From assembly GCF_022788635.1 (NCBI RefSeq), contig NZ_CP076024.1, positions 3,038,001-3,102,000 on the forward strand: DNA of 64,000 nt. The letters are read 5' to 3'. The notes under the pieces are model-generated. The model saw nothing but the letters and a program-made list of their open reading frames with translations. It was not told the DNA's origin and did not search any database. This DNA is from Methylobacter sp. S3L5C (GTDB lineage: Bacteria > Pseudomonadota > Gammaproteobacteria > Methylococcales > Methylomonadaceae). Position 1 is the first letter of the stretch; every line of letters begins with the position of its first letter. The position numbers and the translations under genes are program-made. This document shows positions 11,977 through 63,420 of the stretch, piece by piece.

Positions 11977-12716
11977 CAGAAAAAATACTTAATCAGTGCA
12001 GAATGAAAAAAAACAAGAAAATGATGCTAATGACTGGCAATCGCTGAAAATCTTAGAAACGGAGCGACAGCGAAGTGGTGCGACTGGCATGGTAGTCAGC
12101 TAGCTGGTGTAAGTCCAGCCATTGCCCTGTGAGAAGGGAAAATGTAGGCGAAGGCAAGGGTGTCCAAAGAAACTTTCAATAGCTACTCAACAGGGAAACA
12201 CGGTTATTGATAGCCAATGCGGAATCTGAAGGAAGCCCTAGCCAAATCAGTCACCTAAACGAAAGTGAACCTTCGTAAGGCGGCAACATGAGGGTAAGGT
12301 GCCCGCGACCACCGAAGCCCAATATTCTCACCGTAAACGTGTTGTCGTATTGAAGGTAGGTGGATTGAGAAAGTAGACTATCTTACCCAGTGACGGGCCG
12401 TCGGATTCGGGTCGGAGTAACTGCGACTCTTTAAGCCCTAAGCGCAGCAGTAATGTTGACGTTATGAACCGAGGGTCTTCAGACGAAGCCATAGTAATCG
12501 TAAAGTTCTGTGCCGTTGAATTCATGGTGACATGAAGGAGGGTAAAACACAGGATCAGCAACAGGATGTTAGAGGTGAAGGGCGGAACATGTAAGCGGCC
12601 ATGGTCGTTACATTTGACTGGCAGTTTGAGATCAGCCAACTAAGGAGCCAACGACTATCCGCGCCGTAAACAGTGGACGAATCGTTGGTGCACGATTGAC
12701 GAAAGACTGCTGCAAC

Positions 12717-14039
12717 ATGAGTAAAATGAGCGATATGAGCCTATTAATAGAGGAACCAAGACTTTTCGACAACCTATGCTCAACGCTGTATTTGGGAGTA
12801 GGCTTTAAATTGGTTAAGAAGAACAAAGGTGCGGCCGGTATAGATGGTGTGAGCATTGATGACTTTGAAGCCAATTTAGACGAGGAGCTAAGTCAATTGC
12901 AACAGGAGCTTTGTAATTGGACTTATCAACCTTCGCCGGTACGACGAGTAGAAATCCTTAAGCCTGATGGCAAAGGTGTGCGTTTACTTGGCATACCGAC
13001 GGTGCGTGACCGCGTGGTGCAAACAACACTAAAGCTGTTACTGGAACCGATTTTTGAGCCGTGTTTTTCACCGCACAGTTACGGATTTCGTCCAAGTCGC
13101 AGCGCGCATCAAGCCGTAGCAGCGGCACAACAGATTATCAATAATGGTAAACCTTACGTGGTGGACATCGACCTAGAAAAGTTCTTTGATCGAATAAATC
13201 ACGATCGGCTGATAGCCCGCATGGGTGAAAAGATCAGCGATAAACGGCTACTGAGATTGGTGGGGATACTGTTGCGCAGCGGCGTTATGGTCAATGGTGT
13301 TGTTAACCCCAGCAAGGAAGGTGCAATGCAGGGCGGTCCTTTAAGCCCGTTGCTTAGCAATATAGTACTGGATGAGTTAGATCAGGAATTGGAGCGGCGA
13401 GATCTGGAATTTTGCCGGTTTGCTGATGATTGCAATATATTCGTAAAATCGCAAAAAGCAGCGGAACGGGTGATGGAAAAGGTCAGCCAATTCATAGAAA
13501 AGAAACTGAAGTTAAAAGTGAATCAAGATAAAAGCCAAGTTGCTTTATCTGATAAGGTGAAGTTCTTAGGTTTTACCGTGGTCAACGGGACGATTGCGAT
13601 AGCGCATAAAGCCCTGCAAATGGCCATGAATAAAGTCAAAGCACTGATACCAAGAGGCACTCATAACACTCTGGAAACGACCATGGACAAGATCAATCAA
13701 TGGTATGTGGGCTGGTCGAACTATTATAATTTGACCAACTATCCCTCACAATTGGGGAAAATAGAAGCCCATATCCGGCGGAGACTAAGATCAAGGCTAG
13801 TGAGTCAACAAAAGAGAAGACAGTTTCTTTATCAAAACCTGGTAAAACGGGGAGTACCGTTCAAGCAAGCGTCAAAAGCCGCCTTTTCAAATAACAAACG
13901 ATGGGCGCTCTCTAATACCCGAGCGGTAACGAAAGCCTATCCCAATAGTTGGTTTATTAACCTGAAAGGGCAGGAAATACGCTCCGATCAAAAGCTAGCG
14001 CATTGGTTTGATGTTTCTCAATGGATAAGCCTTGCATGA
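12717..14039 (+). CDS. ltrA: group II intron reverse transcriptase/maturase
   Basis: 440 residues from the ATG at 12717 (an in-frame TTG at 12696 is possible). Reverse transcriptase blocks are complete: GAAGIDGVSIDDFE, YGFRPSRSAHQAV, VVDIDLEKFFDRINHD, GGPLSPLLSNIVLDELD and the catalytic RFADDCNIFV, with FLGF following. The C-terminal part (INQWYVGWSNYYN...KIEAHIRRRLRSRL) is the maturase X/DNA-binding region. I see no HNH endonuclease motif, so mobility would rely on replication-fork priming or similar routes. No frameshift is visible, so the protein may still be active. Confidence 0.92.
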   Translation: MSKMSDMSLLIEEPRLFDNLCSTLYLGVGFKLVKKNKGAAGIDGVSIDDFEANLDEELSQLQQELCNWTYQPSPVRRVEILKPDGKGVRLLGIPTVRDRVVQTTLKLLLEPIFEPCFSPHSYGFRPSRSAHQAVAAAQQIINNGKPYVVDIDLEKFFDRINHDRLIARMGEKISDKRLLRLVGILLRSGVMVNGVVNPSKEGAMQGGPLSPLLSNIVLDELDQELERRDLEFCRFADDCNIFVKSQKAAERVMEKVSQFIEKKLKLKVNQDKSQVALSDKVKFLGFTVVNGTIAIAHKALQMAMNKVKALIPRGTHNTLETTMDKINQWYVGWSNYYNLTNYPSQLGKIEAHIRRRLRSRLVSQQKRRQFLYQNLVKRGVPFKQASKAAFSNNKRWALSNTRAVTKAYPNSWFINLKGQEIRSDQKLAHWFDVSQWISLA

Positions 14040-14040
14040 G

Positions 14041-14072
14041 GAGCCGTGTACGGATCCGTACGCACGGTTCTG
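14041..14072 (+). ncRNA. group II intron domain V
   Basis: GAGCCGTG pairs with CACGGTTC, with the two-base bulge (CG) and a four-base-pair upper stem TACG/CGTA. The catalytic AGC triad is present at 14042-14044. The apical loop reads GATC by my fold rather than the usual GNRA. Confidence 0.75.
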
Positions 14073-14108
14073 TGGGCAGACGGAGGCTGCGGCCTCCTCT
14101 GACCCGAT

Positions 14109-50549: not shown

Positions 50550-53369
50550 TCAGTTTTGTTTTTCTGTAATCAACTGCTTCAATAACGCTTTGCAGTCAGC
50601 CATTTTCTTCTCGGCATGCTCGTTGTGATCACTATACCACCAGTCTTGCCTAACCTGGTATTTTGGAGCCAGTCGATCAATCATTAACAACTTATAGATA
50701 TTGATCCATTCATCATCGACTTTGAGTGCCAGTTTGGGATTGAAAATATAAGCCCCGCGCAACACACGACAGAACAGTTTGCGGTTATATTTATCGTCTT
50801 TGTCGATTTCGTTTTTGGACAAAATACCGGATAAATAAGCGCGTTGTTTGCGGCGTTCCGGCAGAATGCTGTCGGGGATGTGGTGCATGGCAGCGATGAA
50901 ATCCTGGGTAGAAAAACCTTCAATGCGATAGGTCATTTTTTTCGGCATCACCCGGTAAAATAGCGCAATCATTAGATTGAGCATAAAAAACTCCATGCTG
51001 TTTTTGTCGAGCTTGATCAGGCGACCATCGACCTGAATACTCATGCTGGTCGGTTCCAGTTGTTCGTAAATATCAACCAGCTTCTTTTTGGCGTAAGTTT
51101 CACTGCGATCGGTTTGCGCCAAGGCGATTTGAAAAGCCGTTAGCCCGTTGCCGTCGACTTTTTCGGTGTTGGCACCCAGTTCAAATAGTGCCTTAATCAC
51201 TTCGGTATTACCCATCCAGGCCGCAACCATTAACGGCGTTTGATTAAAAATATTGCGAAAATCAGGGCCGTATTGATCAATTTGTTTGAGTACGGCATCC
51301 GGTTTTTTAAAGCTGTAACTGCTGTAATGCTTTTGCTGTAGTAGCTGCAAGCCTTTGTCCAGTTGCTTGGCGGCTTTAAAATCGATTTTAAGCAAGCTGT
51401 TGATGATGTCACGGTCTTCATAAACCAAGCCATATTCAAACAAGGTCATCTTGGCATTTTTATCGTTGCCTTCAAAGGCCTTACGTTTTAGCTCGACCAG
51501 TGTTGCCGGTGTAATAACTTCCCAGTCAGGGGTTTTTTGTTTAAGGATTTCGCTGCGAATTCGCTCGGCTTGTTCCTGTTTGCCTTGCAGTTCAAGTTTA
51601 TGTGCTTCCTGACGCCAAGCGTCAAGACTGGAATTTTGATTGGCGAGTTGCAAACTGCCCTGGGCATCGCGTAAACCCACCAGACCGAGTAACGGTTGCT
51701 TGGGGCTACTCTCAATCCAATACAGATTTTTAACGGCCCGGGTGATGGCAACATACAAGGCGTTAACATAAAACTTATAGACCTCCAGGGATTTGTCGGT
51801 TTTATCCTTGCCACGGGTATATTTAAGATCCAGTTCCAAATCTGCCGCACTGACGCCTTTAGTGATTTCCCGGTAGCGGGCTTCTTCCTGGCTTAAAAAG
51901 TTATAGAGAATAATATTTTCATATTCCAGACCTTTGGCTTCCTGGATGGTAAACACCAAGGGCGTACTAAAATGTTGCTGTGCTGCGGGTTTTTGGTCGA
52001 TTGTCATAACAATAACCGCAAACAGCGTAGAGGCTTTGGTTTTACTGTCCAGCTCTTGGCGAATGGTGGCCGTGTCTTGCAAAAACAGCACTTCGCCCTG
52101 ATTATGGCCGTTACTTTCCACCAGATAATGACTTTCTTTATCAATAGAGCCAAAGCGCTGGTTTTTAATTTTTAAAATCTTGTTGGCAATATCGGTAACT
52201 TGCGGCGAATTGCGATAATTGGTGTTAAGAATCCGGATCAGCTCATCAGAGGTTTGTAACTCATCCTGCCGGTAAAACAGGCTTTTCACTTTCGACCAGG
52301 AAAAGAAGTTGGGATGGACAATCTGATTGGAATCGCCGCACAAGATAAAATCCTGCGCCCGGCGTAGTGATTTGATAATCAGATACAGTTGGATATTGGT
52401 TAAATCCTGTACTTCATCGACAATGACAAAATCGTAACGGGGTTCAATAGACTGTAGATAGTGGTGACTGACAATGTTGCTGTCGTAGAGCTGCTGTTCT
52501 TGTAAAAAAACCAGATATTTTTCAAAAACGGCATACACCGACTCCCGTTCTTCCGCGAGAAAGATGGATTCTTTAATGCCCAGATTTAGATAATCTTCAC
52601 GGCTTAACCAGCTTTTATCGGTAGCAGGGCCGGTGATAACGCCGCGAAACTCCTCAAACAGTTTATGCGCATCTTTCAGCTGACCGTGGCGATGGCGGCT
52701 AAACCATTGCTGAAAAGCCTGAAAAGTAACCGGTTTACCGGCTGGTACCTGGATGCTCTCCAGAAACTCTTGAAACGATAAAAAGTCGATTTGTTGATCA
52801 GCATTATCGTAATGATGAGCGTAATACAGGTCCCGGGAGTTTTTAACCAGATAAGCCGACTGCGTTACATACAGCACATCGCCCACGGCCTGTTTCATTT
52901 TTTCCAGGGTCAGGGCAGTTTTACCACTACCGGCTGAACCGATCACAATCAACGGTGGTTGCAAATCAAAAATCGACTGCTGACGATCATCAAACGAGAT
53001 AATTTTATCCAGCAGGTTAAATGAGCCGTGGTTGGGATTAAGATAAACCAGGGCTTTCTCACTGGTTTCATCGGGCTTGTCTATAACGGGGATTTTATCT
53101 TCATCGATACTGCTGACCTGGCGTAAAAAGCGCGAATCCTGGTAAGTGTGGTTTTTGATAAACTCCAGCAGCAGTGCGTAGTTTTGTTCCTGATGACGAT
53201 AAATGGAAAACAATAAGCGGTCGCGTTGATTAAGGCGTGCCCGGTATAAATTATCACCGACTTTTTTAACCTCAGCCGATTTAAAATCATCATCTTCCAG
53301 ATAGCTTTTAAGTTTGGCAAAGCCCGGAATGGTTTTGGGATTAAGTTCGTTGTAGACCAGGACTTTCAT
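50550..53369 (-). CDS. UvrD-like helicase with ParE/RelE-like N-terminus and ankyrin region
   Basis: 939 residues from the ATG at 53369 (an upstream in-frame start at 53516 would add 49 unconserved residues). The N-terminus (about 1-100) has a RelE/ParE-toxin-like stretch YRARLNQRDRLLFSIYRHQEQNYALLLEFIKNHTYQD. Superfamily 1A helicase motifs follow: IVIGSAGSGKTALTLEKM, FVIVDEVQDLTNIQLYL, DFILCGDSNQI, and VFTIQEAKGLEYENIIL...YVAITRA. An ankyrin region near residues 720-790 has QTPLMVAAWMGNTEVIKALFELGANTEKVDGNGLTAFQIAL. The C-terminal about 150 residues are unassigned. Stand-alone with no DNA-repair neighbours; a defence or stress role is possible but not shown. Confidence 0.8.
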   Translation of the reverse strand: MKVLVYNELNPKTIPGFAKLKSYLEDDDFKSAEVKKVGDNLYRARLNQRDRLLFSIYRHQEQNYALLLEFIKNHTYQDSRFLRQVSSIDEDKIPVIDKPDETSEKALVYLNPNHGSFNLLDKIISFDDRQQSIFDLQPPLIVIGSAGSGKTALTLEKMKQAVGDVLYVTQSAYLVKNSRDLYYAHHYDNADQQIDFLSFQEFLESIQVPAGKPVTFQAFQQWFSRHRHGQLKDAHKLFEEFRGVITGPATDKSWLSREDYLNLGIKESIFLAEERESVYAVFEKYLVFLQEQQLYDSNIVSHHYLQSIEPRYDFVIVDEVQDLTNIQLYLIIKSLRRAQDFILCGDSNQIVHPNFFSWSKVKSLFYRQDELQTSDELIRILNTNYRNSPQVTDIANKILKIKNQRFGSIDKESHYLVESNGHNQGEVLFLQDTATIRQELDSKTKASTLFAVIVMTIDQKPAAQQHFSTPLVFTIQEAKGLEYENIILYNFLSQEEARYREITKGVSAADLELDLKYTRGKDKTDKSLEVYKFYVNALYVAITRAVKNLYWIESSPKQPLLGLVGLRDAQGSLQLANQNSSLDAWRQEAHKLELQGKQEQAERIRSEILKQKTPDWEVITPATLVELKRKAFEGNDKNAKMTLFEYGLVYEDRDIINSLLKIDFKAAKQLDKGLQLLQQKHYSSYSFKKPDAVLKQIDQYGPDFRNIFNQTPLMVAAWMGNTEVIKALFELGANTEKVDGNGLTAFQIALAQTDRSETYAKKKLVDIYEQLEPTSMSIQVDGRLIKLDKNSMEFFMLNLMIALFYRVMPKKMTYRIEGFSTQDFIAAMHHIPDSILPERRKQRAYLSGILSKNEIDKDDKYNRKLFCRVLRGAYIFNPKLALKVDDEWINIYKLLMIDRLAPKYQVRQDWWYSDHNEHAEKKMADCKALLKQLITEKQN

Positions 53370-53970
53370 TTTTCTGATAACAGTTAGGCTGTGGCAGCGG
53401 TTAAAAAATAATTTATTGGGTTTTCTGATTATACCGGTTTTTACCAAGCCTTTTAGCCTGACAGCGATTGCTGATTTAATTTCATTCCTCCATTCAGTAT
53501 TAATGATATCAGGCATTACGTAGTTATCACTGGAAAATAAACAGACAAATCAGCGCTTTCAAAAAAACTGATTTATTCACCAGTCCTTCTCAAAGCGTGT
53601 TGATTTTTAGCTCGGATTTAGTATGCTATTAACAGGATGGTCTGGTGTATAGCATGGAAAAAATTATGCGATTGCCGTCGCGTATGTAAACTCTCCTCGA
53701 TAAAGTATTGTGCAAACAATGGCTCTGCTTTGATGCCATGTAAAACTTCCTGCGTAGCGCAAGCAATCAGCATCTTGATCTTAACGGGACGATAGTGAAG
53801 TTTCTTCAGCAACGGCATAATCTTCAATCAGCGTAATGAAATTACTGTTAATGGCAGCGCAGATGCTATCAAACGCGCACACCAGTTCGACACGATTACG
53901 CAGCGCTGCCATTGACCAGTCGCCGGACACGATATAAAGTAACTAAATCCTTTAACTTTAAGGAAAAGCT
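53370..53970. other. intergenic, no supported gene
   Basis: 601 bases. A 69-residue minus-strand frame (53618-53827) reads like a weakly coding stretch but lacks a family match and a good ribosome site. No repeats noted. Confidence 0.4.
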
Positions 53971-54348
53971 ATGTTTAAGCCATTTTCCAGCATTTTTCAT
54001 TTCCTCAGTCCTGGCAGGACCGGGCAATGCTTTCAGCCACGAAAACCGATGGCCATTCCGGTTGCTACGGACGCTCATAACATTCAGTTATGCAAAAAAC
54101 TTTTCACTCAACTGGATGACGCGGAAGCCGAGATATTGAATGACATCAACGATCCGGAAAAGGCTTGGCAACTCTTGAGTAAAATTCGCCAACTGAGACG
54201 AGAAAGCCAACAAGAATTTGCCATCCTGTTACCGGCGGGTTCAATAGCAATCATTAGTGATAATGAAACCGCACTAAATCCTGTTCGCACCGTGATGACG
54301 CGAACAGGTTTTCAGTGGACTATTTTCAATGGCGGACGTTCTGGGTAG
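53971..54348 (+). CDS. small protein of unknown function at the ICE edge
   Basis: 125 residues, with AAGGAAAAGCT upstream of the ATG. Predominantly helical (NIQLCKKLFTQLDDAEAEILNDINDPEKAWQLLSKIRQLRRESQQEFAILLPAGS), no recognised family. Its end overlaps the convergent membrane-protein gene by 23 bases. Direction and spacing differ from the minus-strand ICE cluster. Confidence 0.6.
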   Translation: MFKPFSSIFHFLSPGRTGQCFQPRKPMAIPVATDAHNIQLCKKLFTQLDDAEAEILNDINDPEKAWQLLSKIRQLRRESQQEFAILLPAGSIAIISDNETALNPVRTVMTRTGFQWTIFNGGRSG

Positions 54349-54865
54349 ATGCATCTGCCTTAATGTTGCCGCCCTTCAAAGCTGCGCGTAATTGCTGCAC
54401 CTGATGTGATCTTGTGGAGGGCAGGGTGTCTAAAACCTCGGAAGTATCCTGTTTTGATGGTCTGCGCTTTTTTCCTGTCTCCGGCTCTTGTAAAACCACA
54501 GCGGGTTTGATTTTGAGTAATTCCTGCTCCAGTTTGGCGATTTGAATATCGGCTTTGAATAACTCCATGGTTTTCAATTTCACCTGTAACTGGGCATCCA
54601 ATCGATCGGCTTCACGGCTAACCCCGGTGTTGCGCCGATGAATTTCATGGCGAAGACTATCCGCCATTATGTCCCACTCAACAGGGTGTGGCAGACAGGG
54701 CATAATAACAGGCGCGGATGCTCGTAAAGCTTGCTTTGCCATACGCTGTTGGAGAACCTGAAGTCCGGATTTCAAAAAAACGAGAGTTTGCAACAACGTT
54801 GCCCAAATCACCCTGACGGCGATGATGAGCAACGCCAACACAATAATGCCAAAAATAAAGTTCAT
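54326..54865 (-). CDS. membrane-anchored coiled-coil protein of the ICE cluster
   Basis: 179 residues from the ATG at 54865 with TTAAGGAG upstream. The open frame continues to 55111, but that extension is translation of the leader RNA. The N-terminal helix MNFIFGIIVLALLIIAVRVIW is followed by a long helical, charged region (EADRLDAQLQVKLKTMELFKADIQIAKLEQELLKI) likely to form a coiled coil, and a basic tail. Family not recognised. Its leader carries both RNA element types, so it is probably the first gene of its own unit. Confidence 0.7.
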   Translation of the reverse strand: MNFIFGIIVLALLIIAVRVIWATLLQTLVFLKSGLQVLQQRMAKQALRASAPVIMPCLPHPVEWDIMADSLRHEIHRRNTGVSREADRLDAQLQVKLKTMELFKADIQIAKLEQELLKIKPAVVLQEPETGKKRRPSKQDTSEVLDTLPSTRSHQVQQLRAALKGGNIKADASTQNVRH

Positions 54866-54898
54866 GGAAAGTCTCCTTAAAAGTACCTCGAATAAACA

Positions 54899-54940
54899 GT
54901 TCCCCATCGGGCCATGATCGTCCGAAGCGGGATTAAAAAA
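54899..54940 (-). ncRNA. type B leader element, weakest copy
   Basis: Read on the minus strand: TTAATCCCGCTTCGGA, then an inner CCC-GAT-GGG hairpin, then AAGGAG before the start. The outer stem is weak here, unlike in the other six copies. Confidence 0.5.
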
Positions 54941-54968
54941 TAATGCCAAAGGCAATACAAATAACTGA

Positions 54969-55121
54969 CGGGCTTGACGCACCCGATACATGCTGGGTTT
55001 CCCCTGCTCGCCGCCTAAAGACGGAACGCCGGTCAAAGCCGGATTCAGCATTCCCGAAGGAACGCATGAATAGTCTGTTTTTCCATTGGTCTCGACTAAT
55101 AACAAGACCATTGGAAAAAAC
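54969..55121 (-). ncRNA. type A structured RNA element, copy 1
   Basis: In plus-strand coordinates: CGGG-CTTGACGCA-CCCG at 54969-54985, a variable hairpin, CCGCC..GACGG, then AACG, CCGG..CCGG, TTCC-CGAA-GGAA, and a long TTTTTCCATTGGTCT/AGACCATTGGAAAAA hairpin at 55077-55121. All copies lie in the leader of a minus-strand gene, so the RNA is read from the minus strand. The overall layout may correspond to a described radC- or icd-type motif; this was not checked. Confidence 0.7.
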
Positions 55122-55199
55122 CTCTGATTAATAAGCGATCAATAGCCACAACCCCCCGGCTTGATGCCAGGGATTGGGCTACTGATTGCTGACCAGGGC

Positions 55200-56951
55200 T
55201 TAGGCCACCAGCAACAACGCTTTCGAGAGTTCGAACAATTGCGTTCGCAACGCCTGAAGATCGCTAATGGCAAGGGCGACCGGAAACAGATGACTGACAT
55301 CGACTCCCAAGCCAATACCCACGGTTTCGATACCGCTGTCACGGCAGCGCTGCAAAATATCCAGCGTACTCCCGATATCATCCGGTTGACCATCGGTAAT
55401 CACCATCAGCACTTTGCGGGGTTCCCGGCAGTGCAACAAAGCAGCAGCACTAAACCAAACAGCTTCAGTCATCGGCGTACTGCCAGTCCCTGCCAACGAA
55501 AAGTTCCCCGTTCGTTGCCGGATGCGTTGACCATGATCCAGCAGACGGTATACCGAACCTTCTTCCTGGTTACCCGGAAAGGCGGTTATGCCCGGATTAA
55601 CTCCGGCCATACCTTCAAATGCCAAGGCCAGCGCCAACGTCGCTTCCAGGGCAATCGGGATGCGCGAACCCAGGGGTTGTCCCAGTCTGTCCAACACCGG
55701 ATAGCCCATGCTTTCCGATTTGTCGAGCAACAAATGAATAGCCGTATTCGGTGACGGTTTGACGCTACTACGCTGAAATACGTGGGTATCTCCCAAGCAT
55801 AAACGGTGTAAACGCTTACCATTGAGTCGTCCCCGGCCGCCAGGCTGCGAGTGGTTCAAGCTATGCGACTGCACCAGTCCTTGCAGCGCGGCGCGGATTT
55901 TTCCCGATTCACCCTGTACCTTTTGAAACAGCTGCAAACCGGCCCGATTATCCGTCGGCGGTTCATCGCCGACGGGCATGACGTACTCGGACACACTGTC
56001 AGGTTCCAAAGCCAGTGCCGCTTTAACGGTTTCAAACACATCCTGTTCAATATCGCCCTCTTCAGTAGTCAATAACGCTGTCAAGACCGGATTGTGATCA
56101 GGGCTTTCACCGTCATCATCGCCGCCAGGGTTGGCGGTAGGGTCTTCGGCCGGATGGCTTGGCTCATCGTCAGCTTGCGTAGCCTGAGTGATGTCGTCAT
56201 CCACCTCGTCAGCATGACCGGACTCATCGGAAGTCGTGGAGTCATCCGCTTGCTTCGCTTCGGCGTCAGCAGAGGATGGATTATCCTTCGCCAACGCAGG
56301 GGCTGACTGATTACTTTGTCTTGGCTGCTCGCATTCTTGTTGAATCATCGTCAGTATGCGATCGGCCAGATGCAGGCAATCGCTTTCCGAGGTCAGGCCA
56401 TTGGGCACTTCCGACAACAAATCCTTAAGCCGTATCACGGCACCTTTAGGAAAACAGGCGTTCAGCGCCGTTTCAGTCAAGTCGACCAACGGCTTCAAGG
56501 CTGCTTGGCCAAGTACCCTTGCTCGCAGGCTTTTCAACACATAGCCATAAAGAATATTGGCCGGATGTTCAGCGCTGCTGCAGGCGGTAAAACCACCGTT
56601 GGCGATCATTTTTTCAATCACCGCTCTGAGCGTCAGCCGGGTGCCGGGAAAATCTTTCGCCAGTTCATGTTCGATACGGACATCTTCAATAGCCCCGCAT
56701 AAGCGCCGACGCAATACCGAGTCGCCATAAGTAAGGGTAAAGTCCGAATAACGAATATGGGCGGCCTCGTGCGCCAGCAGTCCCCAGGCAACTTCCTGAT
56801 AATCCGGATCATCGCCATCGTAAGCCGGCAACTGGATTGCCGAGCCCGTGGTATAAGCCTGATCGCCGCCGACACTGACCTTGATGCCAAAGCGATTGCC
56901 AATCGCGGCGGCAACAATGGGAAATGCGTGTTGCAATGTTTTGTTTTTCAT
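55200..56951 (-). CDS. CobT-like protein with HExxH and von Willebrand A domains
   Basis: 583 residues from the ATG at 56951 (CAGGAG upstream). The N-terminal part has a zincin-type motif, WGLLAHEAAHIRYSD (H61, E62, H65), and a later GAIEDVRIEHELAKDF that could give a third ligand. A long acidic low-complexity linker covers about residues 230-320. The C-terminal VWA domain has a complete metal-ion site: LLLDKSESMGYP (DxSxS), GTGSTPMTEAV (T) and VITDGQPDD (D). It resembles the CobT-like partners of MoxR/CobS ATPases and probably works with the AAA+ gene two genes upstream. The HExxH adds possible peptidase activity. Confidence 0.85.
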   Translation of the reverse strand: MKNKTLQHAFPIVAAAIGNRFGIKVSVGGDQAYTTGSAIQLPAYDGDDPDYQEVAWGLLAHEAAHIRYSDFTLTYGDSVLRRRLCGAIEDVRIEHELAKDFPGTRLTLRAVIEKMIANGGFTACSSAEHPANILYGYVLKSLRARVLGQAALKPLVDLTETALNACFPKGAVIRLKDLLSEVPNGLTSESDCLHLADRILTMIQQECEQPRQSNQSAPALAKDNPSSADAEAKQADDSTTSDESGHADEVDDDITQATQADDEPSHPAEDPTANPGGDDDGESPDHNPVLTALLTTEEGDIEQDVFETVKAALALEPDSVSEYVMPVGDEPPTDNRAGLQLFQKVQGESGKIRAALQGLVQSHSLNHSQPGGRGRLNGKRLHRLCLGDTHVFQRSSVKPSPNTAIHLLLDKSESMGYPVLDRLGQPLGSRIPIALEATLALALAFEGMAGVNPGITAFPGNQEEGSVYRLLDHGQRIRQRTGNFSLAGTGSTPMTEAVWFSAAALLHCREPRKVLMVITDGQPDDIGSTLDILQRCRDSGIETVGIGLGVDVSHLFPVALAISDLQALRTQLFELSKALLLVA

Positions 56952-56969
56952 GAATTGCTCCTGTTGGTG

Positions 56970-57022
56970 AGGGCAAACCATGCTCCCGCCGGGACAATGG
57001 TTTGCCCCAAGGGGTTAAAAAA
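56970..57022 (-). ncRNA. type B leader of the VWA gene
   Basis: Minus strand: AACCCCTTGGGG, then outer stem GGGCAAACCAT/ATGGTTTGCCC around CCC-GGC-GGG. It directly follows the DUF3150 stop. Confidence 0.75.
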
Positions 57023-57031
57023 TACGCAGGG

Positions 57032-58228
57032 TCAGAACCAGTAGTCCTGAGCCGTGCTTTCCTCTGACGTTACCACTTCAAGCCCGGCTTCATCATTGGG
57101 TCGGGTCAAAATCGCTGCAGTGCTTTGACGTTGAGCGATCAGCGTATCGATCGCCTCGTTGCCTGCTTCATCCTCACTCTCAATATCGCCATCAAAAATG
57201 CCGTCAAACAGATTGGAAAAACCAGTCGGAATCTGCTCTGCATCAGCATCAATGACGTTTGGAATTTTATCAACCGGTACAAACGTTTCCGGCACCGGTG
57301 TCGGTATTGCCAACACAGATACTGGTTCATCGACAGTCAATTCAGCAATTTCATCCTCGGCACTGTCTGCCTTCGGTAAATTCTGAGCTACCAACAAGCC
57401 CTCACCGTGACGCCGGGTTTTAACCGGATCGGCCAACAGCAGGGCAGTCGCTAGTATCTCTTGCAAAATACCGCCGGTAATTGCGCCTTTGACAGGGATT
57501 TTTACCAACAAGTCGTCAATGGTATTGACCACCGGTGCAACCCGATAATCGAGAAAGCTCAAGCCATCAAGTTTCTCACGCATGCGGCGTATCGGTCGTA
57601 GCGCGCTACGCGTGACTTGATCCTTACCCAATAGTGATTGCTCGATAAATTGATTGGCTTCCACCGCTATTTCGTAGAACATCTGCTCGCTCATAGAACC
57701 TATTTTGGTCTCCAATCGCGTAACATCTTCCAGTGGTAGTGCTTCTGGCATGCCGACGGTGACCAGTAAATAGTCAAACGATAACCGCGTCGACACAAAC
57801 TCAACCGAATCCACGGCTTGCTCGATGATGCCGGCAAATTCAGGATGGCGCACCACCCAATCGGTCACCGCTGCATCATAGCCGGCCAAAAAATTGGTTT
57901 TTGCCACAGCAAAGTCTCGGGCAATACGCTCAAGCTCTGCGGTAATATCTGCGGCCGACTCGTTAGGGATGGCAAAACCGCCCAAAAATCGGGTGCCGAC
58001 TCGCAAACAAATGCGTTCGGCTTCCTTTTTCAGACGGTTGAATACCGTTAACTGGTCTGGATCAAGTAAGCGCTTGGAACCCAGACTGGCCAAATCCTCG
58101 GGTGGCAGTTTGCTGCCATCGGCCAGCACCAGATCTTCTTTTTTCAGTTTTTTACGGGCACCGTAGATGTTGGCTTCGACTTTTACCAATACAACGCGCT
58201 CTAAAATGATGTTTGCTTCATGAGTCAT
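57032..58228 (-). CDS. DUF3150 protein
   Basis: 398 residues. LVKVEANIYGARKKLKKEDLVLADGSKLPPEDLASLGSKRLLDP and RFLGGFAIPNESAADI are typical of DUF3150, a family seen beside MoxR/VWA genes in conjugative plasmids, ICEs and phages. The mid-part is helical, followed by an acidic disordered C-terminal about 110 residues, ending STAQDYWF. The start has CAGGAGG upstream. Function unknown; likely an adaptor between AAA+ and VWA proteins. Confidence 0.85.
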   Translation of the reverse strand: MTHEANIILERVVLVKVEANIYGARKKLKKEDLVLADGSKLPPEDLASLGSKRLLDPDQLTVFNRLKKEAERICLRVGTRFLGGFAIPNESAADITAELERIARDFAVAKTNFLAGYDAAVTDWVVRHPEFAGIIEQAVDSVEFVSTRLSFDYLLVTVGMPEALPLEDVTRLETKIGSMSEQMFYEIAVEANQFIEQSLLGKDQVTRSALRPIRRMREKLDGLSFLDYRVAPVVNTIDDLLVKIPVKGAITGGILQEILATALLLADPVKTRRHGEGLLVAQNLPKADSAEDEIAELTVDEPVSVLAIPTPVPETFVPVDKIPNVIDADAEQIPTGFSNLFDGIFDGDIESEDEAGNEAIDTLIAQRQSTAAILTRPNDEAGLEVVTSEESTAQDYWF

Positions 58229-58247
58229 GTGAACCTCCTGAGTGAAA

Positions 58248-58300
58248 GAGGCACACCACGTCCCGAATGGGCTGGATTGCCCCTTTCGGGTTAAATAAAA
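58248..58300 (-). ncRNA. type B leader of the DUF3150 gene
   Basis: Minus strand: AACCCGAAAGGGG, then GGCA..CC/GG..TGCC outer stem around CCC-ATTC-GGG, then the CAGGAGG ribosome site. Confidence 0.75.
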
Positions 58301-58315
58301 TGCATAAAACGTTGT

Positions 58316-59053
58316 TTAAAACCAGCAATCGTCAGTGTCGCATAAAGCTAAAGCCAGATTCAATCGGGGTTTAAGCAAGCCTAACAGTTCAGCTATTGCT
58401 CTAATGCTATCCAGATCAGTGCCGAAAAACGCCAGAATGTCCGGCTCAGCCTTCAGATCGACTGACACCTCGCGACTGCTTTCGGTGGCCATGCCGATCT
58501 CAACGCCGTTAATGGCTTGGCGTTTTAATGCCAGTAAAAATAACCAGGGTAGAACACCGTGCGCTTGTCTGATCTGCCCGCTTTGTACAAACGGCTCGGC
58601 GTTTACACTGAGATCAAGTAGTTGTTGCCATCCCGACCAGGTTTGCTCGTGGATAGCTTCATACTCTGTCAAAGCTTGCACAACGTCGAACAGTCGTCTG
58701 ATTTCGCTGGCCAAAGCCATGCCGGTGGCAGGATTGGCTCGATATTCGATATGCCAATACAACGTACCAATCGCGGGTAGTGGCGATTCTGGATGTTCAT
58801 GCATGGCTTGCCCAGATAAAAACACTTGGCCTTCGCTGTCAATGTCGACTTCGGCCACGAATACATAACCTTTGGCCTGTTTCTGCCGTTCAATGTCGAA
58901 CTGCCTGATACCGTTGCGGGTACTAACCCCTGGCAAGCGGGCTGCGGTTTTTCCCCAACGGCTGGTAATACTGCCATCAGGGTTGGTTTTGACCGCCCAG
59001 TCTTTGGAGCCGCCGTCACTGTTACGGTGACGGTATAAACGCCAGGCTGCCAT
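58316..59053 (-). CDS. WGR-like protein of the AAA+/VWA cluster
   Basis: 245 residues. The N-terminal about 70 residues (WRLYRHRNSDGGSKDWAVKTNPDGSITSRWGKTAARLPGVSTRNGIRQFDIERQKQAKGYVFV) resemble a WGR-type domain with RWGK in place of the usual WGR. The rest is helical without a recognised family. The C-terminus DTDDCWF recalls two other cluster proteins. Begins 2 bases after the AAA+ stop, so translation is coupled. Role unknown; WGR domains usually bind nucleic acid. Confidence 0.6.
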   Translation of the reverse strand: MAAWRLYRHRNSDGGSKDWAVKTNPDGSITSRWGKTAARLPGVSTRNGIRQFDIERQKQAKGYVFVAEVDIDSEGQVFLSGQAMHEHPESPLPAIGTLYWHIEYRANPATGMALASEIRRLFDVVQALTEYEAIHEQTWSGWQQLLDLSVNAEPFVQSGQIRQAHGVLPWLFLLALKRQAINGVEIGMATESSREVSVDLKAEPDILAFFGTDLDSIRAIAELLGLLKPRLNLALALCDTDDCWF

Positions 59054-59055
59054 GA

Positions 59056-59997
59056 CTATACCTGCCAGTCATCACCGAACACGTCCCGTGCGATGCGATG
59101 AATCGCTTCGCGTTCGGCCGGTTCTGCCCTGAAAGTTAACGCTCTGTCCAGGGAATAGGCCAAGGCATTGGGAGCACTTTTAAAGGTGGCTACCAGGGAC
59201 GCCCAGCGTACCAAGCCTCGGGTCGAAAGCGTTACCGACAACATGCCGCCGCCATCTTGCCCACCAATAAACACCTTGCGGATCTGATTGGCGACCTTGA
59301 TCATACTTGCGCGTACCGTTTCCGGCATGCTAGGCACCACAGTAGCCAGCAGTTTCATTTCGTCTTCCGGGTCGGGGTAACCCACTTCCAGTAAACGAAA
59401 ACGATCCAGGAATGCCAAGTTTTGTCTCAACACGCCCTGATACAAGCCCGACTGATCGCCAGAACCCCGACTGTTGCCGGTGGCCGCCAGTCTAAACTTG
59501 GGGTGCGGCATGATCACATCTCCGGTTTGCGGAATTGTCAACGGCTTACCTTCAACGACTTCGTTCAAGCCAATCAATTCAGCCGGATCGACCGCATCAA
59601 TTTCATTAAGTAATAACACATGGCCTAGACGCACCGCCAGGGTCAACGGGCCATCAACCCATCGCATGGCACCGCTCTCGACCAGCATATACTGACCCAG
59701 TAAATCGTTGAGCTCCAAACGACCGTGCCCGGTGACGGCATGGACGCCCCATTGCAGTCTTGCAGCAACCTGTTCCAGTAACGAGGTTTTACCTGAGCCG
59801 GTAGGGCCGGTCAGATACAAACCATCGCCATTAGGAAAGCCCAGAAAAGCCAGCACATCACGTAAGTGATCTTTACGAAACACATATGGCTTGTTAACCG
59901 GCACATACGGATTTTGTGCAGGACTAAAACCTTCCACCGTCATGGCCGCCGGCGCCAAAATGCCGAAAGTGTCGGCAATAGAGTAATGTTGAATCAT
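59056..59997 (-). CDS. MoxR/CobS-like AAA+ ATPase
   Basis: 313 residues. Walker A is YLTGPTGSGKTSLLEQ, Walker B is HVLLLNEIDAVDP and sensor 1 is RLAATGNS, with GHGRLELNDLLGQYMLVESGAMRWVDGPL between them as in the CobS/MoxR group. RLLEVGYPDPEDEMKLL and TLSTRGLVRWASLVA are the C-terminal signatures. Such ATPases remodel a partner, usually a VWA protein; here the VWA gene is in the same cluster. Homologues accompany bet/exo in SXT-type ICEs. TTAAGGAG precedes the start. Confidence 0.9.
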   Translation of the reverse strand: MIQHYSIADTFGILAPAAMTVEGFSPAQNPYVPVNKPYVFRKDHLRDVLAFLGFPNGDGLYLTGPTGSGKTSLLEQVAARLQWGVHAVTGHGRLELNDLLGQYMLVESGAMRWVDGPLTLAVRLGHVLLLNEIDAVDPAELIGLNEVVEGKPLTIPQTGDVIMPHPKFRLAATGNSRGSGDQSGLYQGVLRQNLAFLDRFRLLEVGYPDPEDEMKLLATVVPSMPETVRASMIKVANQIRKVFIGGQDGGGMLSVTLSTRGLVRWASLVATFKSAPNALAYSLDRALTFRAEPAEREAIHRIARDVFGDDWQV

Positions 59998-60036
59998 GGT
60001 GAACTCCTTAAAATTGGGTTGAAACCCGAAAGATAA

Positions 60037-60084
60037 GGCACACCAAACCCCGGAAGGGCATAGTGTCGCCCCTTCGGGTTGATT
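60037..60084 (-). ncRNA. type B leader of the AAA+ gene
   Basis: Minus strand: AACCCGAAGGGG, then GGCGACAC/GTGTGCC outer stem around CCC-TTCC-GGG. A further GGGTTTCAACCC hairpin lies between it and the ribosome site. Confidence 0.75.
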
Positions 60085-60140
60085 GGTTTCCTGAAAATAA
60101 CCAGGGATGTGTCAGTTGAATTTAGGTTAAGAAATCCCGC

Positions 60141-60356
60141 TTATCGAGCCATGGATAACCGACTGACGTTCGCCACTTCCGCGCGGGCGACAAACTCCTC
60201 GTCCATTAAGCGCAAGATCCGGCGAATATCGGTTTTTAGACCCAGATCGTTGGACTCGCCGAGCATGTGCTGCACTAATTGTTGCTTGACAGTGATTTCT
60301 TCCAGACTGGCCGTTTCCAGCCAGCAATACAGGGTTTTCCAAAAGTCTTTGTTCAT
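60141..60356 (-). CDS. small helical protein of the ICE cluster
   Basis: 71 residues. Start at 60356 with an excellent GTAGGAGGTCACTC ribosome site. Acidic-helical (FWKTLYCWLETASLEEITVKQQLVQHMLGESNDLGLKTDIRRILRLMDEEFVARAEVAN). No family recognised. It is the first gene of the unit that continues with AAA+, WGR, DUF3150 and VWA, following leaders of both types. Confidence 0.7.
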   Translation of the reverse strand: MNKDFWKTLYCWLETASLEEITVKQQLVQHMLGESNDLGLKTDIRRILRLMDEEFVARAEVANVSRLSMAR

Positions 60357-60379
60357 GAGTGACCTCCTACAATGAAAAC

Positions 60380-60430
60380 AGGGGGCACCCTGACCCGACC
60401 GGGCAAGAAACCCCGACGGGACTGAAAAAT
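60380..60430 (-). ncRNA. type B leader of the small helical gene
   Basis: Minus strand: GTCCCGTCGGGG, then GGGG..CCCC outer stem around CCC-GGTC-GGG, adjacent to a type A element. Confidence 0.7.
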
Positions 60431-60586
60431 CAGGCTTGACGCACCTGATACAGGAAAGGGCTTACCTTTTCCTGCCGCTGAACAGCGGAACGCCGGTTGA
60501 GACCGGATTCGGGCCTCCTCGAAAGGAATGCCTGAAATGTGCTGATTTTTCCTTTAGCCTTGGCTGACAAGGACAGAGGAAAAACC
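60431..60586 (-). ncRNA. type A structured RNA element, copy 2
   Basis: Plus-strand view: CAGG-CTTGACGCA-CCTG, CAGGAAAGG/CCTTTTCCTG, CCGCT-GAAC-AGCGG, AACG, CCGGT-TGAG-ACCGG, TCCT-CGAA-AGGA, and TTTTTCC.../...GGAAAAA. Stems differ from copies 1 and 3 by paired changes while the loop CTTGACGCA and the AACG spacer are kept. Confidence 0.75.
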
Positions 60587-60620
60587 AGGACACCCTGCAG
60601 GCCTCAGTAGCCATGCAGGG
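60583..60620 (-). terminator. hairpin after the exonuclease gene
   Basis: CCCTGCA/TGCAGGG stem (60593-60620) followed on the minus strand by TGTCCTGGTTTTT. It could end the bet-exo unit before the next leader. Confidence 0.45.
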
Positions 60621-60646
60621 CGTTCTGTTCTGGATAAAAACAACCC

Positions 60647-61648
60647 TTAAAACCAGTAGTCGACCCGGATCAGGTCTTTCAACACCTCGGCATCGAAAGG
60701 CACTTCAGCCCGTTTTCCGTCATCCTCGCGACAGGTGATACGGACTCGGTTAGCCGGTTTTTTGCGATAAGCCTCCAGCACAGCTTCTTGCAATTCAGGC
60801 AACTGAGCGTTCAGCACCGCTTTGTAATCAATACTGCCTTGCACCTGAAAGCGATTGACCCGCAAGCCGGAGTGCTCGGCCGACATGAATTCGCCCATCA
60901 AGCCCACCAAGGTTTGTTCGATGCCGGCTTGCTGTAATTCCAGAGCTTTGAGCCGAGTTTTGATATCGTCAATCTTCATTGCGTTCTGACGATAGTTAGC
61001 CGCCAGCTGTTGCCACTGTTGTTTTGTAGTGCCGTTGGGTAAATAAAGATCACGTTCAGTATCTTTCGGCGGCTCCCTCCCGGTTTTTACCGCTGACAAA
61101 AAGTCCATGGCGGTTGCGATGAGCTGCGTAAGAAAGGCTTCATTACGCGCAATCTCAAACTCTACATCTTGCCCTTGGTGATAAAAGAACAAGAAACCGC
61201 GCGTTGCATCGGCTACCAGCAGTTGTTGTTGTACTTGGCACCAATACAGTTGATAGGCCGCAGCTTGCTTGCGGTTTAACAGCACATCCAGAAAAGTCGT
61301 TTCATGAGGACATTTGACTTCTACCGGCTCATTGTTTTCGGATAAACCATCAAACGACGCTCGCATCAGCGGATAGCGCTCGGACTCGCCGCACAACGGC
61401 AGCAACAGGACATCGTGTTTTTCCTCAAAGCATTGCAGGGCTTTGGATTCGGTTTCGATACCGAACCGGATCAAGGGATTGTTGTCCAGCGGTTGTTCCA
61501 GCACCAGTCCGGTCTTTTCTGCCCACAATCGCCAGGGCGTCTTATACGGAGAGCGCCCCATGATAATCGCCGCCTCACTGGCGCTAAGGCCTTGTGAGCG
61601 CCACAAGCGCCATTCGGGTGAACGTTGCGATACATTAATGACGTTCAT
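60647..61648 (-). CDS. YqaJ/lambda-type exonuclease
   Basis: 333 residues. RSPEWRLWRSQGLSASEAAIIMGRSPYKTPWRLWAEKTG is the YqaJ N-terminal block; FGIETESKALQCFEE, LMRASFDGLSENNEPVEVKCPHETTF (D...E-x-K nuclease core) and YQLYWCQVQQQLLVADATRGFLFFYH complete it. This 5'-3' nuclease makes 3' tails for the Bet annealing protein. The start shares one base with the upstream stop (TGATG), so translation is coupled. Ends IRVDYWF. Confidence 0.92.
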   Translation of the reverse strand: MNVINVSQRSPEWRLWRSQGLSASEAAIIMGRSPYKTPWRLWAEKTGLVLEQPLDNNPLIRFGIETESKALQCFEEKHDVLLLPLCGESERYPLMRASFDGLSENNEPVEVKCPHETTFLDVLLNRKQAAAYQLYWCQVQQQLLVADATRGFLFFYHQGQDVEFEIARNEAFLTQLIATAMDFLSAVKTGREPPKDTERDLYLPNGTTKQQWQQLAANYRQNAMKIDDIKTRLKALELQQAGIEQTLVGLMGEFMSAEHSGLRVNRFQVQGSIDYKAVLNAQLPELQEAVLEAYRKKPANRVRITCREDDGKRAEVPFDAEVLKDLIRVDYWF

Positions 61649-61980
61649 CAGTCAGCTCCGTGCAGTTGAATATGGCAACCCCAACGCTGGGTCGACAGAC
61701 CGAGCTTAAGCAGTTGAAGGTCGCAACGTCTGGCCCAGTGATAGTCATCAAAAATCAGCAGTAGCTGACCGGCCGTAGTCAGGCATTGGCCGCCATAGCT
61801 TTCAGCCAGCTTGTGCAATTGGGTATCGGATAACGTGGCTGAGTTTTTTATTGTCAATCCCGATTTCCAGGAGCACTCCAGAAAATCGCGACCGTGGCGG
61901 CGAAGCACTGTGGGTGAATCGTAGCGGTGCCAGTCGGTATGCCAGGGTATTCGGTTGGATGATTGATCAATGGCATTCAT
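61648..61980 (-). CDS. small protein of unknown function between bet and exo
   Basis: 110 residues with AAAAGGAGATGTT before the start. WHTDWHRYDSPTVLRRHGRDFLECSWKSGLTIKNSATLSDTQLHKLAESYGG and LLLIFDDYHWARRCDLQLLKLGLS are not a family I know. Its position and coupling to the exonuclease suggest an accessory factor of the recombination pair. Confidence 0.7.
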   Translation of the reverse strand: MNAIDQSSNRIPWHTDWHRYDSPTVLRRHGRDFLECSWKSGLTIKNSATLSDTQLHKLAESYGGQCLTTAGQLLLIFDDYHWARRCDLQLLKLGLSTQRWGCHIQLHGAD

Positions 61981-61998
61981 AACATCTCCTTTTAATAA

Positions 61999-62052
61999 AG
62001 AGCATCATCCATCGTCCCTAGGGCGATGGATGATGCCCGGAAGGGTTTGATA
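61999..62052 (-). ncRNA. type B leader before the bet-exo spacer gene
   Basis: Minus strand: AAACCCTTCCGGG, then a long outer stem GCATCATCCATCG/CGATGGATGATGC around CCC-TA-GGG. It has the longest perfect stem of the set. Confidence 0.78.
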
Positions 62053-62099
62053 AAGACGAGCTTGGTAGCCGGTATGAACAGAAACGGTTTTTACGTCAA

Positions 62100-63143
62100 T
62101 TAGCGTAGCGAAGCCAAGGTCTCGCGTGCTTTGGTTAAGGCTTCCGATGCTGGCGTAGATACTGACGGTATGGCAGCATCATCGGTCGGCGCAGTCTCAC
62201 CGTCAAAGGAATATGACTCCATCTTGGTGACTTGTTCTGCTTGTGCCGCTTTGTCCAGTTCGGCGTTGGCGTAAGTCAAATCAAGGCCCGAGAACTTGCA
62301 GTTGGCATAGTCGTAAGCGGCTTTCCAGGCACCGGCCAGGGTGGTGCGCCTGACCAGTTCCGTGACCGCTTTTTGAATACGGGGGCTGATCATGGACAGA
62401 TCTACCACGCGGTGTAATTCCCCTCTATCGACTTCATTAATGCGACTGGCCGTGCCGTTAAGCACCGTGCCATCATTTATATCGTTCAGGCTTTTACCGT
62501 CCATTTCCTCGGCGGCATAGCCGCATTCTTCGGGAAAAGCAGCTCGTAGCGAGGCCGCTTTGCCGCATTTACCTAACTGGCCTTTAGGGCGTTTTATCCA
62601 CATGGCCGTCGGTAACTGCGAGTTTTTCCCGCCAGCCGTGCTGTAGGCCTCCAGCCAGTACACTTCTTCAGTGAAGGGACAGCGACGACCACCAACCAGA
62701 CGGTAAACCGTCACCGCCACCCACTCGGGAAACGTCACCGTAATGGTATTTTCTTGCCAGGTGTCATTGTCGTCTTTAAAGCGCCCGGTAAAGGACTGAG
62801 TCACATCAGGGCCCCAGACCGGTCTATCCATCCCTGCCCACAGACCGGTTCGGGATGCCGTGGTCTGGATTTCCATAATCGAAGGCCAGACGGTTTCGAC
62901 ACTACGCCCCAAAGCGGCACTCCACATTGGCACCACATGCACCGGTTTTTTAAAAATATCAAGCTTGCGGGCTTTGCAGTAATCCAGTGCCATCATGATG
63001 GCTTCCGGAGTTTTGGCCGTGGGGAAAGTCACTTCGGTGAGTACTTTCCAGGATTGTTCAGACAGACCGTAAACCTGATTGGCGTCAACCGGCATCGGCA
63101 GGTTGCGGGTTTTTTGAGGATTATTTATGGATGAATTGCTCAT
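62100..63143 (-). CDS. RecT/Bet-family single-strand annealing protein
   Basis: 347 residues from the ATG at 63143 (ACAAGGAGAAACGCA). The open frame back to 63353 is leader RNA read as protein. Core: FPTAKTPEAIMMALDYCKARKLDIFKKPVHVVPMWSAALGRSVETVWPSIMEIQTTASRTGLWAGMD and KAASLRAAFPEECGYAAEEMDG, as in phage Bet proteins. Longer than lambda Bet (about 260) by a C-terminal acidic extension. Works with the exonuclease in recombination, as in SXT-type ICEs. Confidence 0.93.
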   Translation of the reverse strand: MSNSSINNPQKTRNLPMPVDANQVYGLSEQSWKVLTEVTFPTAKTPEAIMMALDYCKARKLDIFKKPVHVVPMWSAALGRSVETVWPSIMEIQTTASRTGLWAGMDRPVWGPDVTQSFTGRFKDDNDTWQENTITVTFPEWVAVTVYRLVGGRRCPFTEEVYWLEAYSTAGGKNSQLPTAMWIKRPKGQLGKCGKAASLRAAFPEECGYAAEEMDGKSLNDINDGTVLNGTASRINEVDRGELHRVVDLSMISPRIQKAVTELVRRTTLAGAWKAAYDYANCKFSGLDLTYANAELDKAAQAEQVTKMESYSFDGETAPTDDAAIPSVSTPASEALTKARETLASLR

Positions 63144-63165
63144 TGCGTTTCTCCTTGTAAAAAAC

Positions 63166-63216
63166 AGAGGACGCACTGCCCCAACTTGGGAACGCGTCCC
63201 CAGAGGGTTAAAAACC
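63166..63216 (-). ncRNA. type B leader of bet
   Basis: Minus strand: TTAACCCTCTGGGG, then GGACGC/GCGTCC outer stem around CCC-AAGTT-GGG, then AAGGAG. Confidence 0.78.
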
Positions 63217-63274
63217 GGTACAGCGGTGACTGTAACGGCAGGATTATCAATGTTGGGTTTGCATTTAAAATCAT

Positions 63275-63420
63275 CGGGCTTAACGCACCCGACACGTCGA
63301 TGAATCTCATCCACGCCGCCTAAAGGCGGAACGCCGACGAAAAGTCGGATCAAACCATCCCGAAAGACAGCATGAATTGTTAGGTTTTAGTTAAAAGGTA
63401 ATACGCCCAAGGAAAAAACG
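63275..63420 (-). ncRNA. type A structured RNA element, copy 3
   Basis: Plus-strand view: CGGG-CTTAACGCA-CCCG, GATG-AATCT-CATC, CCGCC-TAAA-GGCGG, AACG, CCGAC-GAAAA-GTCGG, then CATGAATTG and a TTTTTTCC end. It lies in the bet leader, upstream of its type B element. Confidence 0.72.

Follow-up and report, generated by a model that had tools for sequence, protein, structure and literature searches.

The gene cluster at 63.2 to 54.3 kb of the window, by which we mean the whole 64,000-nucleotide stretch of Methylobacter sp. S3L5C analysed here (bases 3,038,001-3,102,000 of a 4.8-Mb single-contig genome), raises the question of why one module of a mobile element should carry a short structured leader ahead of each cistron that is preceded by a gap, with pairing arms that differ from gene to gene. 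A first-pass annotation had described these as seven two-hairpin leaders in an integrative and conjugative element (ICE), kept by selection and suggestive of control over translation or RNA stability. The leaders are a real, selected and element-borne RNA family with the logic of a translational attenuator, and we consider it likely that each one acts in cis as such an attenuator through three competing helices.

A covariance model, R1, was built from 62 leader sequences, six of them from the window (all but the copy at 59995-60080), and it recovered all seven window leaders on the minus strand with E values of 5e-11 to 3e-5, every one stopping at the start codon of the gene downstream. These are the leaders of DUF3150 (58226-58291, E 4.8e-11), a 71-aa gene (60354-60422, E 1.4e-9), CobT/VWA (56949-57016, E 1.7e-9), the cobS-like MoxR ATPase (59995-60080, E 1e-8, outside the model's sequences), bet (63141-63208, E 3.2e-8), a 110-aa gene (61978-62047, E 7.7e-6) and a 179-aa gene, the '54.9 gene', whose copy is the weakest (54863-54932, E 3e-5). 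A finder script returned the same seven, and the earlier reading of one leader per gapped cistron is supported. The next-best R1 match in the window was the opposite strand of the cobS leader (60047-60105, plus strand, E 0.049); other strong leaders likewise score weakly on their opposite strand, as expected because the C and G blocks are near-palindromic. Nothing comparable was found by R1 in the adjoining 40 kb (best E 3.2) or in the rest of the 4.8-Mb genome (best E 0.047). It had also been claimed that coupled genes lack the leader, and neither the finder nor R1 placed one in the window at the YqaJ exonuclease gene (exo; 60647-61648), whose start overlaps the preceding gene, or at the 245-aa gene (58316-59053), which begins 2 bases past cobS. 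By the finder, the leader is kept in the orthologous gaps of CobS (25/26), DUF3150 (24/26), CobT (23/24), the 110-aa gene (22/22), bet (21/22), the 54.9 gene (20/21) and the 71-aa gene (19/19), and orthologs of the two leaderless genes gave calls in just 3/24 and 1/26.

Each leader reads, in order, C1 (CCC), G1 (GGG or GGGG), a 5' arm, C2, G2, a 3' arm that contains C3, the Shine-Dalgarno (SD) sequence (G4) and the start codon. The earlier wording, AACCC-N3-5-GGGG, needs correction for the copies at 60.38 kb (AGTCCC...GGGG), at 54.9 kb (AATCCCGCTTCGG) and at 62.0 kb, which has GGG instead of GGGG. The C and G blocks hardly vary across 216 non-redundant leaders, in part because the finder requires them; the base ahead of C1 is A in 82%, and G reaches at most 12% in the ten bases that precede C1. 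Three helices can be drawn on these blocks. S1 joins the CCC-N-GGGG block to the inner CCC-N-GGG block (C1:G2 and G1:C2). S2 is the outer stem already described, with G1:C3, arm on arm, C2:G2 inside, and C1 and the SD free. In S3, C3 pairs with G4 and the 3' arm lies on the SD/start region. The two-hairpin picture is thus one of two alternative folds, and it overlooked the second partner of the 3' arm, namely the SD and start of its own gene.

We propose that the 3' arm would serve as an anti-SD strand, pairing either with the SD and start codon of its own gene (S3) or with the upstream 5' arm, which would mimic that SD/start region (S2). S1 would keep the SD mimic inside a hairpin loop. The combination of S1 and S3 would then be a closed state with the start hidden, and S2 with its small inner hairpin an open state with the start freed. 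We infer that the closed state lowers translation here, for which the attenuator reported upstream of bet in SXT offers outside support. Clear closed folds are those of a leader in locus L022, ahead of a VWA gene, and one in locus L026, ahead of the 109-aa gene at 4799. Formation of S1 and S2 together as a pseudoknot was judged, by reasoning only, to be sterically too tight.

Gene-specific pairing of the arms

If the arms are matched to their own genes, own partners should pair better than swapped ones. S3 was scored by pairing the 3' arm against a segment made up of the 16 nt that precede the start and the first six coding bases, a pairing that the finder does not use; the finder favours stems, so the specificity of S2 is finder-biased. 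When averaged over loci, the own S3 partner was the best of 7 for 7/7 genes and the own sum was the lowest of 5040 gene permutations, and in the window alone own pairing was among the best 2 of 5040. The outer stems, said to differ completely and still to pair, were gene-specific overall, own S2 pairing in the window again being among the best 2 of 5040 permutations. Averaged over loci, own S2 ranked first in 5/7 genes, with DUF3150 at rank 2 and the 54.9 gene at rank 7. This last copy is the weakest: its outer stem amounts to only -3.2 kcal/mol, its 5' arm pairs better with every other gene's 3' arm (own rank 7/7), and shuffled sequences fold as well as it does (z -0.69, against -1.55 to -5.09 for the remaining six).

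The same was seen in wider sets. A first set held 101 leaders from 11 element groups (one of 102 entries gave no parse), and own against permuted pairing gave z -18.4 for S3, -11.7 for S1 and -22.7 for the finder-biased S2, with 0/20000 permutations as good in each case; with permutation kept within the element the values were -15.0, -9.3 and -16.8. R1 at E <= 0.001 had hits in 37/274 gammaproteobacterial genomes, the window's own included, and two or more hits in 25 of the 37. An independent set was drawn from 25 stretches in 19 of the 36 other hit genomes, picked for many or strong hits. It gave 166 R1 matches at E <= 0.05, of which the best 150 were aligned and 108 kept after removal of redundant, short and unparsed sequences. 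Of the aligned 150, 147 stop at a start codon, which is in part built into the model. For the 108, z was -18.9 for S2, -16.2 for S3, -13.4 for S3 without the SD and -13.4 for S1, and a same-sense control gave +0.9. Permutation within genomes (104 leaders, 16 genomes with at least three) gave S2 -11.2, S3 -10.2, S3 without the SD -8.9, S1 -9.1 and the same-sense control +1.3; for S3, 0/20000 permutations were as good as own. Own pairing was better in 15 of the 16 genomes for S3, 14 for S3 without the SD, 14 for S1 and 16 for S2. These computations show S3 and S2 to be gene-specific, and S1 to be so outside the window, in leaders that recur across genomes. The earlier view that the structure is kept by selection is supported.

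With G-U and A-C scored alike and mismatched leader pairs as control, S2 contained 264 G-U and 51 A-C (mismatched, 850 and 347), S3 259 and 167 (925 and 776) and S1 107 and 70 (509 and 378). S2 thus shows a clear contrast and S3 and S1 a slight one, and an excess of G-U is what would be expected if the coding strand were read into a structured RNA. The specific pairing of the 3' arm with its own SD and start, together with the excess of G-U over A-C, supports translation, one of the two levels of control that the first-pass annotation had suggested.

Competing readings and possible triggers

Two other explanations of the hairpins were considered. They might shield each cistron's mRNA or guide its processing, a role open to a hairpin at the 5' end of a cistron and one with which the rarity of G in the ten bases ahead of C1 would also fit; one hairpin would suffice for this, though, and it would leave unexplained why the 3' arm matches the SD and start of its own gene, so we regard it as improbable. 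They might instead be a DNA signal, either an operator of the SetCD/AcaCD type or a single-strand, Frpo-like promoter, since the module genes are of kinds seen in the leading regions of conjugative elements, where structured promoters exist (PMC11541004). We think this very improbable. The leader stops at the start codon, whereas SetCD sites sit upstream of the -35 box (PMC4344509), a comparison made by this rule of position only. There are no conserved promoter-like columns around C1 in block-anchored alignment, no promoter scan having been run, and the excess of G-U also speaks against a DNA signal.

Several observations weigh against the three-helix attenuator itself. In the window S1 pairing showed no gene-specificity (z -0.6; 5752/20000 permutations as good). 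An early test in the methanotroph elements had put the permutation fraction at 0.04 over loci and, for the window, at 0.18; S1 was initially discarded on those data and was reinstated on the wider sets. The same-sense control of the first set had z -2.3, which implies a small bias there. Column covariation is modest: for S3 in CobT orthologs the score was 0.135 against 0.109 in shuffles (1/500), with pairs in 96.8% of cells and one double-changed pair, and the S2 score on the same orthologs was matched by 59/500 shuffles. Over 62 leaders, S1 plus SD pairs scored 0.216 against 0.170 in shuffles (0/500). Fixed-register pairs on the model's alignment reached z 3.1 at best, weak because the register slides between leaders, and MAFFT columns across genes lose it. 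The case rests on the register-free tests above. S2 is the minimum fold in 3/7 window leaders folded as 73-93-nt pieces (cobS, where it is S2-like, bet and the 110-aa gene); the other four (CobT, DUF3150, the 71-aa and the 179-aa gene) give S1+S3, the CobT leader doing so in 75 nt and becoming S2-like with more upstream sequence. Over the 101 leaders, 56 minimum folds contain S3, which speaks for the attenuator, and 18 are S2. Lastly, blocking C1 in the equilibrium model opens the SD/AUG slightly, from 0.370 to 0.406, and a linker control opens it more, to 0.444; per leader, opening went up in 68 and down in 29 of 216. Even with these points we favour the attenuator.

Our leading guess as to what might open it has two versions, both tentative. 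In one the switch is self-timed: nascent RNA would pass through S2 before the SD is made, leave the SD free and be translated for a while, and later relax to S1+S3. Truncation folding was carried out on 202 leaders (14/216 were dropped for lack of room). In RNA cut before the SD, S2 was favoured over S1 in 141/202, in full RNA S3 was favoured over S2 in 174/202, and both conditions were clear in 112/202, all in predicted folds; a rough path search put the median barrier from S2 to S1+S3 at 14 kcal/mol. On the other side, S1 was favoured before the SD is made in 61/202, and 3/7 window leaders remain S2 in the full RNA. The energy order, present in 0.62 of leaders, was no commoner than its parts multiplied (0.66 x 0.955), and with an order as frequent as chance combination would give, no energy tuning is seen. 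In the other version a protein or small RNA of the element or host would open the gene by holding S2 or C1. Near-invariant C and G blocks (partly finder construction), an A before C1 in most leaders and arms that are rewritten would suit such a factor; none was found, without a systematic search for one, and C1 blocking has little effect in the equilibrium model. Simple occlusion of C1 was set aside as a trigger for this weak effect.

It seems rather unlikely that a ribosome finishing the upstream cistron covers segment 1 and so opens the next gene. An upstream stop lies at most 30 nt from C1 in 100/248 leaders with a long upstream frame, but the distance from stop to C1 is broad (0 to 300 nt) and 18/266 leaders have no such stop; these figures concern frames of 60 codons or more, and short leader peptides were not searched for. 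This relay was dropped for the breadth of its stop distances. The notion that the triplet before C1 is the upstream stop codon was also rejected, a stop triplet being there in 59/266 and so not general. Taking the attenuator with its self-timed opening furthest, the leaders could be a portable family of switches that let only newly made transcripts of each gene be translated, for instance once the element has reached a new cell, until refolding shuts the gene off with no regulator involved; we offer this as speculation. Equally speculative is the corresponding suggestion that conjugative elements place the three-helix device, with arms freely rewritten, before many recombination, RadC-type and anti-restriction genes.

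The module, its neighbours and its spread

By Pfam, the minus-strand module runs from bet (RecT; 62100-63143) through the 110-aa gene (61648-61980), exo, the 71-aa gene (60141-60356), the cobS-like MoxR ATPase gene (59056-59997), the 245-aa gene, DUF3150 (57032-58228) and CobT/VWA (55200-56951) to the 179-aa gene (54326-54865). It is similar to a cluster of ICE R997, which we take to belong to the SXT/R391 family, and of IncA and IncC plasmids. The genome has a single match to each of the MOBH relaxase and TraG families, both 66-74 kb rightward of the module, so that the element can fairly be called an ICE. The bet protein is present in 3/35 genomes of the genus, including the window's own. 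Nineteen loci (L001-L019), mostly of Methylomonas and related methanotrophs, were taken for an approximately 90% identical CobS. Several strains hold more than one module copy: four in Methylomonas sp. LW13 and three each in M. methanica R-45363 and M. fluvii EbB (multi-copy loci L005, L009, L016 and L017; L001, L003 and L007; L002, L006 and L011). Elsewhere in the window are a group II intron (12207-14108, plus strand; D1-D4 and domain matches) and a protein of 988 aa (50550-53516, minus strand) that matches SF1 helicase (UvrD-like) and ankyrin.

Three leaders, those of the 179-aa and 71-aa genes and of bet, have another structured element, some 100 nt long, directly upstream of them on the minus strand (about 54970-55070, 60430-60540 and 63270-63375), with GGTGCGTCAAGCC or a near form. 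Its 11-base core, GTGCGTYAAGC, occurs in 18/19 of the loci L001-L019 (13 with three copies) and in L021, and in none of the other loci then compared; two stretches tried gave no Rfam match for the element. The leaders had been thought possibly to belong to a described motif such as radC. This was not borne out: there was no radC RNA (RF01754) match in the window at gathering score, in 44-64 kb at E <= 10 or in two short stretches, and the leaders matched no other Rfam family at gathering score (window and seven loci) or at relaxed E in the stretches tried. The radC RNA, listed in PMC2864571, has a separate 149-position model, does not match the leaders and shares with them a similar ICE-like setting. 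None was found in the window's own genome at E <= 0.001, and it was found in 1/274 genomes. In that genome (L058; G296:C1 1356538-1401475) four copies each stand beside an R1 leader, three of them 28, 18 and 11 nt away from it and the fourth overlapping it by 33 nt; one of the leaders is weak (E 0.018). This pairing of radC RNA and leader resembles the window's tandem of the 100-nt element and leader.

In a phylum sample at E <= 1e-4, R1 had hits in 11/249 genomes, nine of the window's class (its own included) and two of other classes. The covariance-model search of ICEs that had been suggested was productive, with related leaders in R997 and in IncA/C plasmids. Among the genes given to the finder, which are not all those annotated, leaders were called in R997 at 9/16 in the block stretch and 0/24 elsewhere, transfer genes included, and in an IncA plasmid at 7/15 and 16/46 in two block stretches (one gene in both) and 1/49 in the remainder. 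As R1 at E <= 1 found nothing in L029 and L030, the two 50-kb stretches that lie outside the block, that single call is unsupported. The R997 bet leader is an R1 match at L026 5578-5642 (E 1.1e-7; also a model sequence) that ends at the annotated bet start. Behind the leaders lie 158 distinct proteins. Domain scanning of 96 from the independent set gave 36 families, with DUF3577 in 10, RadC in 8, DUF6094 in 6, SNF2 in 5, DUF3275 and DUF6573 in 4 each and DUF932 in 2, and single cases of ArdC, RecT, DUF3150 and a DNA methylase. Among individual genomes, the hits in G141:C2 (15-310 kb) are strewn across a 320-kb contig and not clustered, and G281:C2 carries the same hit pair with equal scores at about 1.50, 3.14 and 3.49 Mb. 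The best score among the ICE and plasmid loci scanned (54.3 bits) belongs to L027 7302-7366 (plus strand) of the IncA plasmid, which ends at a start codon without a listed gene, possibly that of a missed small gene.

Relation to known systems

In ermC-type attenuators, segments 1:2 and 3:4 pair in the closed state and 2:3 in the open one, and the trigger is a ribosome stalled on a leader peptide. The leaders share this competition around the SD, with S1, S2 and S3 own-specific (S1 not in the window alone); no leader peptide of this sort was found here among the frames examined, which were those of at least 60 codons, with stops 0-300 nt before C1. The leader of the MS2 maturation gene folds with a delay, a transient fold permitting translation until the stable fold closes the start, and hok is a further parallel of this type (PMC6733600). 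The likeness would lie in a start hidden at equilibrium and free in the transient fold, here predicted in 112/202; MS2 concerns a single phage gene with another structure, and the timing here is a prediction only. EGeRS1 of the pLS20-family plasmids also consists of repeated structured elements ahead of establishment genes of conjugative plasmids (PMC8708921), but these are 400-600 bp long, stand ahead of operons and occur in Bacillus hosts. SetCD and AcaCD work at promoters (PMC4344509; PMC4207636), and conjugative elements are described as timing their early genes by other means (PMC11541004; PMC8708921).

There remains the attenuator of bet in SXT. Its study is reportedly that of Garriss et al. 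2013 (J Bacteriol 195:1991), known to us via a review. According to that review, a strong translational attenuator upstream of bet hinders translation of the well-transcribed bet and exo, and is also present in IncA/C plasmids, where its role is left open (PMC4542580). Thus the kind is known at one gene. The gene and its place in a homologous cluster are the same, an R1 leader ending at the bet start in both R997 and the window; the review describes one site, whereas here there is one leader per gapped cistron, in many elements and with three helices. In the literature searched, no paper dealt with such leaders as a family, and the one prior report met there is the sentence on bet in PMC4542580. 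The family and its three-helix competition with an SD mimic appear to be new within that literature. The leaders provide a natural set of RNA switches for testing helix competition, and can serve to mark the module and to flag true start codons where elements lack annotation. They also give a sequence-level account of how such elements could restrain well-transcribed genes, and extend one printed bet attenuator to a family that spans, in both ICEs and plasmids, a module holding recombination and RadC-type genes, with the arms rewritten and the logic constant.

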